From the NCBI GenBank assembly GCA_015067255.1, contig SVMS01000004.1:1-64000 (forward strand): a stretch of 64,000 bases of DNA. The letters run 5' to 3'. The DNA is from Oscillospiraceae bacterium. GTDB lineage: Bacteria > Bacillota > Clostridia > Oscillospirales > SIG519. Position 1 is the first letter of the stretch. Each line of letters opens with the position of its first letter. The translations under genes and the position numbers were made by a program. The notes beneath the pieces were generated by a model. It had not been told where the DNA came from and made no database searches. It saw only the letters and a list, made by a program, of their open reading frames with translations. This document shows, piece by piece, positions 23,521 through 64,000 of this stretch.

Positions 23521-23556
23521 GAGGCTGTAAAAAAACTTTCGTTTTTTTACAGCCTC
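23521..23556. terminator. Terminator of rpmE
   Basis: A 16-bp stem (23521-23536 with 23541-23556) and a 4-base loop, followed on the minus strand by a T-run. It lies 15 bases after the rpmE stop and also shields rpmE from the neighbouring divergent promoter. Confidence 0.85.
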
Positions 23557-43390: not shown

Positions 43391-43429
43391 ATAAGAGCTG
43401 TAAAAACATTTTGTTTTTACAGCTCTTAT
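43391..43429. terminator. Bidirectional hairpin between obgE and spoIIIAH
   Basis: An 18-bp perfect stem (43391-43408 with 43412-43429) with a 3-base loop begins two bases after the obgE stop. A/T runs inside the stem serve either strand. The remaining ~50 bases up to the spoIIIAH stop show only a short TGGG/CCCA palindrome. Confidence 0.75.
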
Positions 43430-60924: not shown

Positions 60925-63009
60925 ATGTACGAAAATCACAGAATTTTCAAAACCGAATTTACCGGTAGAACTCTTACCATTGAAACCGGAAAATTTGCAG
61001 AGCTTGCTAACGCTTCTGCCCTTGTAAGATTTGGCGATACAGTTGTTCTTGCAACAGCTACCATGGCTCCCAAGCCTCGTGACGGAATTGATTATTTTCC
61101 CTTGTCCGTTGATTATGAGGAGCGTCTTTATTCAGTAGGTAAAATTCCCGGAAGCTTTTTAAAGCGTGAAGGCAGACCTTCCGATAAGGCTATCCTTGCT
61201 TCCCGTGTTATTGACAGACCCTTGAGACCTCTCTTCCCTAAGGATATGAGAAATGACGTTGCAGTTAATCTTCTTGTTTTATCTGTTGACAATGACAATT
61301 CTCCCGAAATTGCCGGAATGATAGGTGCTTCTATTGCTCTTACAATTTCCGATATTCCCTGGGCAGGTCCTATCGGCGGTATGTCCGTTGGTTATGTGGA
61401 CAACGAAATCATTTTAAACCCCAATACAGTACAAAGAGAAAAGAGCCTTCTTTCCCTTACTGTTGCCGCTTCTGAGAAAAAGGTTGTTATGATTGAAGCA
61501 GGCGCTAAGGAAATAAGCGACGAAGTTATGTTCGACGCTATTATGAAAGCTCACGAAGAAATTAAAAAGCTTATTGTATTTATCAATGAAATCAAAGCTG
61601 AGGTTGGTAAAGAAAAGATTGCTTTTGAATCTCAGGAAGTTGATCCCGAAATGTTCGAAGCAGTTAAGGAATACTGCATCGAGGCTGTAAGAGAAGCTAT
61701 GTATACTGATGATAAAACTGTCAGAGATGCTCGTTTGCTTCCTATTTACGAAGATGTTTTGGCTCACTTTGCAGAAATTTATCCTGACAGCGAGGCTGCT
61801 CTTAACGAGTGTATGTATAAGCTTCAGAAATTTGTTGTTCGCCGCTGGATACTTGACGAAGGCAAGCGTGTAGACGGCAGAGGACTTCTTGATTTAAGAC
61901 CTCTTCATGCTGAGGTTGGCGTTCTTCCCAGAACTCACGGTTCAGGTCTTTTCGCAAGAGGACAAACTCAGGTACTAACTATTGCTACCTTAGGAACAAT
62001 TGCAGAAGCTCAGATGCTTGACGGAATTGACCTTGAGGAAACAAAAAGATATATGCATCACTACAATATGCCCTCTTACTCTGTTGGCGATACCCGTCCT
62101 TCAAGAGGCCCCGGCAGACGTGAAATTGGTCACGGCGCTCTTGCCGAAAGAGCTCTTGAGCCTGTTATCCCCTCTGAAGAAGAGTTTCCCTATGCAATCC
62201 GCCTTGTTTCTGAGGTTTTAACCTCTAATGGTTCTACCTCTCAGGGTTCTATCTGTGGTTCTACTCTTGCTCTTATGGATGCAGGGGTTCCCATTAAGAA
62301 GCCTGTTGCAGGTATCTCCTGCGGTCTTGTTACTGAGGGCGACCGTTGGCTTACAATGGTTGATATTCAAGGTATTGAAGACTTCTTCGGCGATATGGAC
62401 TTTAAGGTTGCAGGTACACATGACGGTATCACTGCTATCCAGATGGACCTTAAGATTGACGGTTTAACTCCCGAAATAATCAAAAAAGCATTTGAACAGA
62501 CTCACGTTGCAAGAAATTATATTCTTGACGAGGTTATGCTTAAGGCTATTCCCGAGCCCAGAAAAGAGCTTTCAAAATATGCTCCCAAAATGCTTTCAAT
62601 GAATATTGACCCCGAGAAAATCCGTGACGTTATCGGTAAAGGCGGATGTGTAATTCAGAAAATTACTGCTGACACCGGCGTTAAAATCGACATTGAGGAT
62701 GACGGCAAGGTATTTATTGCAGCTACCGATTTGGAAGCAGGCGAAAAAGCTATGTCCATCATCAATGCAATTGTTAATGACCCTGAAATAGGAACTATTT
62801 TCTGCGGTAAGGTTACAAGAATTCTTAAATTCGGTTGCTTTGTTGAATTTGCACCCGGCAAGGAAGGTCTTGTTCACATTTCTCAGCTTGACACAAAGCG
62901 TGTTGAAAAGGTTGAAGATGTTGTTTCTGTTGGCGATGAAATCTTCGTTAAGGTTGTTGAAATCGACGACCAGGGTAGAATCAATCTTTCAAGAAAACAG
63001 GCTCTGTAA
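60925..63009 (+). CDS. pnp: Polynucleotide phosphorylase
   Basis: 3'-5' phosphorolytic exoribonuclease, 694 residues. Two RNase PH domains are visible: the first opens TLTIETGKFAELANASALVRFGDTVVLATATM, the second LRPLHAEVGVLPRTHGSGLFARGQTQVL with the catalytic block VAGISCGLV and the FGDMDFKVAGT acids. The KH domain (IRDVIGKGGCVIQKI) and the S1 domain (GKVTRILKFGCFVEFAPGKEGLVHISQL) close it. Full length. SD aaaggaga precedes ATG 60925. Confidence 0.97.
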   Translation: MYENHRIFKTEFTGRTLTIETGKFAELANASALVRFGDTVVLATATMAPKPRDGIDYFPLSVDYEERLYSVGKIPGSFLKREGRPSDKAILASRVIDRPLRPLFPKDMRNDVAVNLLVLSVDNDNSPEIAGMIGASIALTISDIPWAGPIGGMSVGYVDNEIILNPNTVQREKSLLSLTVAASEKKVVMIEAGAKEISDEVMFDAIMKAHEEIKKLIVFINEIKAEVGKEKIAFESQEVDPEMFEAVKEYCIEAVREAMYTDDKTVRDARLLPIYEDVLAHFAEIYPDSEAALNECMYKLQKFVVRRWILDEGKRVDGRGLLDLRPLHAEVGVLPRTHGSGLFARGQTQVLTIATLGTIAEAQMLDGIDLEETKRYMHHYNMPSYSVGDTRPSRGPGRREIGHGALAERALEPVIPSEEEFPYAIRLVSEVLTSNGSTSQGSICGSTLALMDAGVPIKKPVAGISCGLVTEGDRWLTMVDIQGIEDFFGDMDFKVAGTHDGITAIQMDLKIDGLTPEIIKKAFEQTHVARNYILDEVMLKAIPEPRKELSKYAPKMLSMNIDPEKIRDVIGKGGCVIQKITADTGVKIDIEDDGKVFIAATDLEAGEKAMSIINAIVNDPEIGTIFCGKVTRILKFGCFVEFAPGKEGLVHISQLDTKRVEKVEDVVSVGDEIFVKVVEIDDQGRINLSRKQAL

Positions 63010-63022
63010 TTTATATAAATTT

Positions 63023-63058
63023 AAAGCTTCGGACACAAATTAGTGCCCGAAGCTTTTT
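63023..63058 (+). terminator. Terminator after pnp
   Basis: A 10-bp stem (63023-63032 with 63047-63056), a mismatch, three more pairs and a 6-base loop, ending in five T counted with the stem. Confidence 0.8.
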
Positions 63059-63082
63059 AGGGGATAGGAAAATCAAGCAGAA

Positions 63083-63163
63083 TCTGTCAATTTCGCGCCG
63101 ACAAATTTTTGTCGGCGGTTACCCGACGGTGTACAGAGGTACTCCGAGGGCGAAATTGGCAGA
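63083..63163. repeat. Three-way-junction inverted-repeat element
   Basis: An intergenic 81-base palindromic unit. P1: 14 bp (63083-63096 with 63150-63163, one G.U). P2: GCCGACAA hairpin (63097-63116). P3: CGGTGTAC (63127-63134) with GTACTCCG (63139-63146), one T.T mismatch, loop AGAG, plus CC/GG below it. It folds equally on either strand, lacks a T-tract and is far more G/C-rich than the flanking DNA. It may be a dispersed repeat (MITE- or REP-like) or a structured RNA. The following bases to 63302 are A/T-rich with nothing I can name. Confidence 0.7.
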
Positions 63164-63302
63164 TAGCATAAAACGTATATTTCTTAAAAGAATTAGCAAA
63201 AAGATGTTTTTCTATTGTTTTTACTCTTTCTTTTATTAAATGATGGTATATAGTTGTTTTATTTACTTGTTTTATGCGCTCTGCGTTTTTTTACATCCCC
63301 TT

Positions 63303-64000
63303 TTATAATATTATGCAAATAAGTCCGCCACTACCTTCGTTAATAATTCTCTGTAAGGTTTCCTGAATTTTATCCCTTGCATCGTCGGGCATTTTATACA
63401 GCTTATTTTGTAAGCCTTCATTTACAAGCTCGTGTAAGGATTTACCGAAAATATTGCTTTCCCAAAGCTTCTGCGGATTTTCTTCATAATCCATAAGTAA
63501 GTATTTAACAAGCTCTTCCGACTGCTTTTCGCTCCCAACTATAGGACTTACTTCTGTTTCAATATTAGCCCGTATCATATGTATCGACGGTGCTGATGCC
63601 TTTAAGCGAACTCCGTATTTTCCGCCCTGTTTAACTATTTCGGGCTCTTCAAGAGTCATTTCGTCCATATCGGGAGTAACTATTCCGTATCCGATAGTTT
63701 CAGCATCGTTTAACGCATCTTGTATTTTAGAATATTCTTTTTTAATTGAGGAAAGCTCTCTCAGTGTTGTCATAAGCTGTGCATCATTATCAATTTCAAG
63801 ACCTGTTGTTTCACTCAAAACTTGATAAAAGAGAGTTTCGGGGAAACTAAGCTCTATGCAGGCACAGCCTGTGCCCAAGTCAATTCCTGCAACATTGGAA
63901 TTAGTTATATATTCATTGTCAATAAGCTTATCTGCCATAGCCTTAATATGACTTATTTTTGAAATTCCTTTTGACGCTTCAACAATGCTTTGAAGCACTG
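63303..64000 (-). CDS. spoIVA: Stage IV sporulation protein A, C-terminal part
   Basis: C-terminal ~232 residues of SpoIVA, the ATPase that polymerises on the forespore surface as the base of the spore coat. The frame is open at the right edge; the N-terminal ATPase domain lies outside. Matching family text includes YGIVTPDMDEMTLEEPEIVKQG, YGVRLKASAPSIHMIRANI, VGSEKQSEELVKYLL and the end INEGSGGLICIIL, the amphipathic tail needed for membrane docking. An internal ATG at 63998 is not the real start. Confidence 0.95.
   Translation of the reverse strand, partial: VLQSIVEASKGISKISHIKAMADKLIDNEYITNSNVAGIDLGTGCACIELSFPETLFYQVLSETTGLEIDNDAQLMTTLRELSSIKKEYSKIQDALNDAETIGYGIVTPDMDEMTLEEPEIVKQGGKYGVRLKASAPSIHMIRANIETEVSPIVGSEKQSEELVKYLLMDYEENPQKLWESNIFGKSLHELVNEGLQNKLYKMPDDARDKIQETLQRIINEGSGGLICIIL

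Follow-up and report, generated by a model that had tools for sequence, protein, structure and literature searches.

The window analysed here, a 64,000-nucleotide stretch of DNA from an Oscillospiraceae bacterium, carries a 241-bp element that looks like one of a new family of small structured, mobile repeats. In our reading, the element is probably a non-autonomous dispersed structured repeat with a BOX/ERIC/MITE-like habit, recognised as a folded single strand and inserted beside terminators. The window copy sits between pnp, which ends at position 63009, and spoIVA, which lies on the minus strand and from which the source organism is recognised as a spore-former. The positions of the features are collected in Table 1.

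Table 1. The repeat element of the window, its helices and the adjacent gene-end signals
Feature	Positions	Strand	Remarks
pnp intrinsic terminator hairpin	63023-63056	+	immediately adjoins the element on the left
Whole repeat element, 241 bp	63060-63300	+	left end GGGGATAGGAAAA, right end TTTTTTTACATCCCC
H1 5' arm, terminal inverted repeat	63060-63082	+	near-invariant GAA at its end, before the core
P1 5' arm	63083-63095	+	pairs with 63151-63163; fold and covariation across genera
P2 hairpin	63096-63117 (63096-63104 with 63109-63117)	+	variable module
P3 hairpin	63122-63150 (63122-63134 with 63139-63150)	+	most conserved part
P1 3' arm	63151-63163	+	fold and covariation across genera
H3 5' arm, second stem	63164-63174	+	TAGCATAAAAC; 63165-63174 pairs with 63269-63278
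H3 3' arm, second stem	63269-63278	+	GTTTTATGCG, then recurrent NTC
H1 3' arm, terminal inverted repeat	63280-63300	+	pairs with 63060-63082 (alignment fold)
spoIVA stop codon	63303-63305	-	2 nt past the right end of the element

The core of the element (63083-63163) folds into a three-way junction with z-scores of -8.5 as DNA and -7.8 as RNA, and none of 200 dinucleotide shuffles folded equally well. Refolding of this segment reproduced the coordinates, the stem lengths and the G.U and T.T mismatches described in the first-pass annotation of the window. The statement that the palindrome is not a terminator also holds: the element is not a single short GC-rich hairpin followed by a T-run, and the terminator scan returned only the pnp hairpin and none in the core. 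The 81-base palindrome itself is real, but it had been taken for the repeated unit, of which it is only a part. Similarly, the palindrome had been set apart from the surrounding A/T-rich DNA, whereas the 241-bp unit takes in part of these surroundings. Within the core, the P3 consensus is CCCGA.GG.GTAC....GTAC..CGAG.GG and a pyrimidine mismatch recurs at 63130/63143, where T63130 faces T63143 in the window copy. P2 is missing or different in sequence in other genera and varies from copy to copy in the genome of origin.

The boundaries of the element were set by aligning 20-26 copies having unrelated flanks; homology stops at the two end sequences given in Table 1. These ends are imperfect inverted repeats of ~22 bp, mutually paired in the consensus fold, and the H1 pairing is found in the alignment fold as well as in 28 elements from about 25 genomes. 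The genome of origin contains about 26 near-complete copies, plus fragments, spread over many contigs and on both strands with unrelated flanks, which establishes the dispersed repeat that the first-pass annotation had considered. Cores are 80-98% identical over 81 bases, and blastn with 63060-63302 returned further copies at 86-91% identity. Deletion derivatives and one tandem partial copy are also present, and one copy is split by another repeat of ~270 bp.

The ~270-bp repeat, with ends TAGGGTAGAG...CTCTACCCTA, lies inside the element copy at L028/L029 (G000 C1:159248-159518, G000 being the genome of origin). A copy of a related structured repeat, at the end of L032 (G000 C28), contains the left part of this ~270-bp repeat. 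A second structured repeat family of the same genome (GTGCAGATTTCGTCAATCCG...GGCGTACATAGGTACG...CGGATTGACG; L031:5850-5945, L054-L059) often stands at contig ends and apparently belongs, as a variant, to the superfamily of the element.

Mapped onto a tree of the remainder of the element, itself weakly resolved, the P2 types require 11 changes, against a mean of 10.7 after shuffling. As the P2 types are independent of this tree, P2 seems to be exchanged as a block between copies, an exchangeable module travelling within the genome of origin. The compensatory P2 changes seen in the genome of origin therefore count for less than they seem to.

The phylogenetic range of the element was then delimited. 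Rfam, at gathering and at relaxed thresholds, returned no family for the window or for 10 relatives, and no description of this repeat family was found in the literature. An exact degenerate pattern gave 4 isolated matches in unrelated phyla among ~85,000 genomes, which is about chance level by estimate, and 0 matches in viral contigs. Since blastn of close sequence gave no match in 58 relatives, covariance models were needed. A model of the core (R1) retrieved homologues of diverged sequence from a further 11 genomes of the order; when read together with their flanks, these share the layout of the element but differ in most letters. A further model (R2), run on 394 genomes from 168 genera of this order, found the element in 31 genomes (15 genera). 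Among 399 genomes sampled across the phylum, R2 recognised the genome of origin only (0 of the 398 others), a result that doubles as a false-positive control. The element is multi-copy in several carrier genomes, and head-to-tail arrays of 2 to 3 or more units with a ~190-bp period occur in G331 (L136 C24, L137 C12) and G361 (L138 C39).

In order to evaluate compensatory evolution, 19 elements were aligned by sequence only with MAFFT (alignment A4). In this alignment, 92.8% of the cells pair and both sides change in 22 of 32 core pairs. The covariation score was 0.437, as compared to 0.157 in shuffles (0 of 500 reaching it); slid controls did not exceed 0.114. The first-pass annotation had looked to many intergenic copies with compensatory changes as the support for a repeat family or an RNA, and both the copies and a strong covariation across genera are indeed present. 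The P1-P3 counts are biased towards pairing by the picking of outside relatives with structure-aware models. Therefore the two helices left unpaired by the search models, H1 and H3, were checked separately. Their complementarity is kept in 28 elements, down to the terminal bases, with H1 terminal pairs such as GGGGAT/ATCCCC, GGAGAT/ATCTCC, GGGAAT/ATTCCC, GGCGAT/ATCGCC and GTGG/CCAC.

The two strands are not equivalent. Mismatches in H1 and H3 are G.T in 49 cases versus A.C in 14 (p 1e-5, relatedness not corrected for). The + strand of the whole element is more stable than the - strand in 25 of 25 elements of the genome of origin and in 21 of 25 from other genomes, a few of the element ends in this comparison being machine-picked and imperfect. 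A wobble-type strand bias is unexpected of a double-stranded DNA signal and expected of RNA or folded single-stranded DNA. The excess of G.T over A.C, together with the bias in strand stability, thus indicates that selection acts on the element in single-stranded form, either RNA or ssDNA. That the conserved entity is the folded + strand, as RNA or ssDNA, is well supported, and the structured-RNA reading put forward from the palindrome is strengthened to this extent. We also considered the 3'UTR of the convergent, minus-strand gene as the functional strand; the wobble bias disfavours it. Among the core copies of the genome of origin, counted as distinct pair states, no wobble bias is visible (G.T 8, A.C 9), so that the present copies there may be largely relics.

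The position of the element with respect to genes is nearly constant. Counting hairpins with a folding energy of at most -9 kcal/mol that lie no more than 15 nt from an element end, we found one at the left end in 22 of the 24 copies with clear ends and at the right end in 1 of 24. Of 28 elements from other genomes, 15 have a left-side hairpin. On the right, a convergent stop codon lies within 15 nt in 14 of 26 copies, the window copy having that of spoIVA. The hairpins beside the copies mostly belong to one dispersed sequence type (GCTGTAAAAAA...TTTTTTACAGC). Exceptions exist, and the window copy is one of them, its neighbour being the pnp terminator, unrelated to the dispersed type. The beside-terminator placement could partly reflect survival where insertion is harmless. 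A replication-strand bias of insertion was not seen from the GC-skew of the flanks (16 of 26, p 0.33).

Terminator palindromes of the type GCTGTAAAAA...TTTTTACAGC are possibly a SPRITE-like repeat family of their own. These near-identical palindromes are dispersed in the genome of origin, which contains 29 perfect ones; in the window they lie at 23524-23553 and 43397-43423. Beyond this genome, they also adjoin the element in further genera of the order. Beyond the end of the window, at G000 C4:69041-70488 (L034:9041-10488), ORFs that are holin-like and N-acetylmuramoyl-L-alanine amidase-like by their translations were observed, which may mark a prophage edge.

Gain and loss were read by comparing sites between relatives, in a genome set comprising one genome per species and with flanks often too diverged for the reading of empty sites. 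The dnaK-dnaJ spacer contains the element in G361 and is empty in G262, G337 and other family members read; the queried DnaK segment is 97% identical between G361 and G262/G337. An element in this spacer was observed in two families, in the same orientation (G361, L083/L156; G205, L116), and was absent in the other genomes examined. At a site in G337 (C22), the element and the adjacent terminator hairpin are both missing from the relative, so that the insertion unit may include the terminator. At the third compared site, two relatives carry elements of quite different sequence.

We propose the following scheme for the dispersed repeat. The + strand would fold so that an outer helix, formed by the two ends, encloses the three-way-junction arm (P1, P2, P3) and a second arm (H3). 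A trans-acting machinery would recognise this folded single strand, either as RNA or as ssDNA at a fork, and would insert copies beside terminator hairpins, where they would do little harm. The recognition signal would be the folding and not the end sequence, which would explain why the terminal bases covary. Mobilisation in trans, already suggested by the first-pass annotation, is at this stage something that we infer: neither the search of the genome's own assembly nor that for Y1/RAYT genes revealed a mobiliser, and the flanks showed no clear target duplication. In a less likely version, the element would be a miniature retroelement or ssDNA element, a kind of bacterial SINE, with the folded + strand as the mobile form and the terminator hairpin as the target. 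If so, shape alone would be conserved and the terminal bases would be free to co-vary.

The main rival to the repeat reading is a family of regulatory or 3'-end RNAs that would serve the host, the folded RNA being useful at gene ends for mRNA 3' stability, read-through control or as an sRNA. We regard it as unlikely. It would account for the covariation across genera, the + strand bias and the constant gene-end position, but the neighbouring genes are unrelated housekeeping genes and the majority of the genomes in the order do not carry the element. The bursts in particular species, the tandem arrays and the presence/absence differences among close relatives also argue against a host function. 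In addition, a scan of 62900-63400 showed no sigma-70-like promoter, and the + strand of the element lies beyond the upstream gene's terminator.

An ordinary MITE, mobilised by a DDE transposase recognising the GGGGAT... terminal inverted repeats, is rather improbable. The element is indeed short, non-coding, multi-copy and intergenic, with ~22-bp terminal inverted repeats and no internal transposase. However, the terminal pairs vary by genome, GAGGCT being a further variant to those given above, yet stay complementary, and the RNA-type strand bias is unexpected for a double-stranded substrate. No consistent target duplication was detected in the flanks of 26 copies and of one filled/empty pair, these flanks being diverged. 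In the genome's own assembly, an incomplete MAG, the search for an element that has these ends and carries an ORF was negative. Strong GGGRATRKRAAAAAA sites in this genome all corresponded to element copies, remnants or terminators, and the single 2-kb pair inspected had no transposase inside.

A REP/RAYT-type system, in which folded ssDNA would be moved by a Y1 REP-associated transposase, has very little probability and is largely refuted for the RAYT group searched. In its favour, conserved GAA and TAG stand at the feet of the main hairpin and recall guide tetranucleotides, and one of seven RAYT-like loci examined in other genomes adjoins element units. At this locus, L239 (G262 C10), a RAYT-like gene is directly followed by one truncated and one complete unit. 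In contrast, RAYT-like genes occur in 8 of 31 element-positive versus 83 of 363 element-negative genomes, showing no association, and none is present in the genome of origin despite its numerous copies; RAYT is therefore not the general mobiliser. The three IS200-type genes of that genome have no adjoining element either. Equally improbable is a SPRITE-like composite 3'-end module, in which terminator hairpin and element would spread jointly, a second terminator being provided by the outer helix and its T-rich tail: the joint absence at one empty site, the near-identical GCTGTAAAAA palindromes and the TTTT into which right ends often run are consistent with it, but at least 2 copies (window, L010) stand beside unrelated terminators, about 12 of the 29 perfect hairpins of the dispersed type stand without an element, and the loops of the terminators are found in either orientation with respect to the element.

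Overall, the dispersed-repeat reading would add to Clostridia-type bacteria an order-wide family of small repeats that keeps its fold, ends included, but not its sequence, and that stands in one orientation on one side of terminators. A conserved fold combined with a fixed terminator side would be hard for a sequence-specific DNA transposase to explain. The question of how BOX/ERIC-like repeats move would thereby become testable, and transcript maps of carriers could reveal structured 3'-end signals derived from the element.

Several known systems resemble the element in part. Group IIC introns insert immediately 3' to terminator hairpins, in a constant orientation and with no target duplication. 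The element shares with them its place beside terminator hairpins and its fixed orientation, but it is several times smaller, lacks an ORF and, in a comparison made via Rfam only, matches no intron domain. REP/BIME sequences are dispersed extragenic palindromes with compensatory changes, a GTAG-type head and a flanking rayt gene (PMC2817692). The element is likewise a dispersed palindrome with compensatory changes, and mobilisation in trans, as suggested by the first-pass annotation, would be a further likeness; however, REPs measure 20-40 nt, as compared to 241 bp for the element and 81 bp for its core, the heads differ from GTAG, and RAYT association is lacking.

The closest systems in habit are the pneumococcal BOX/RUP repeats with SPRITE (PMC3049150) and the ERIC/Correia-type repeats (PMC2229807), a likeness for which we claim membership in none. 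ERIC/IRU, Correia/NEMIS, RUP and similar repeats are non-coding, of ~100-250 bp, with terminal inverted repeats, folded transcripts and a mobiliser that is mostly not known; they typically have TA at their ends and target duplications (PMC2229807). The element agrees in size range, non-coding nature and terminal inverted repeats, but shows neither clear TA ends nor clear target duplications. SPRITEs of Streptococcus pneumoniae are dispersed terminator-like palindromes near the 3' ends of convergent genes (PMC3049150). The GCTGTAAAAA...TTTTTACAGC hairpins adjoining most element copies resemble them, whereas the element, unlike these simple hairpins, is a separate multi-helix unit beside such hairpins. 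BOX and RUP are small interspersed repeats of S. pneumoniae with hybridised ends, enriched near gene 3' ends, for which RNA-level effects have been proposed (PMC3049150). The element, likened to them by habit only and from that description, with no relation found in Rfam, has the same small size, dispersal, paired ends and gene 3'-end location, and a modular interior as in BOX. In contrast to BOX and RUP, it keeps its structure order-wide while nearly all of its helix sequence changes, and its insertion is anchored at one side of terminators.
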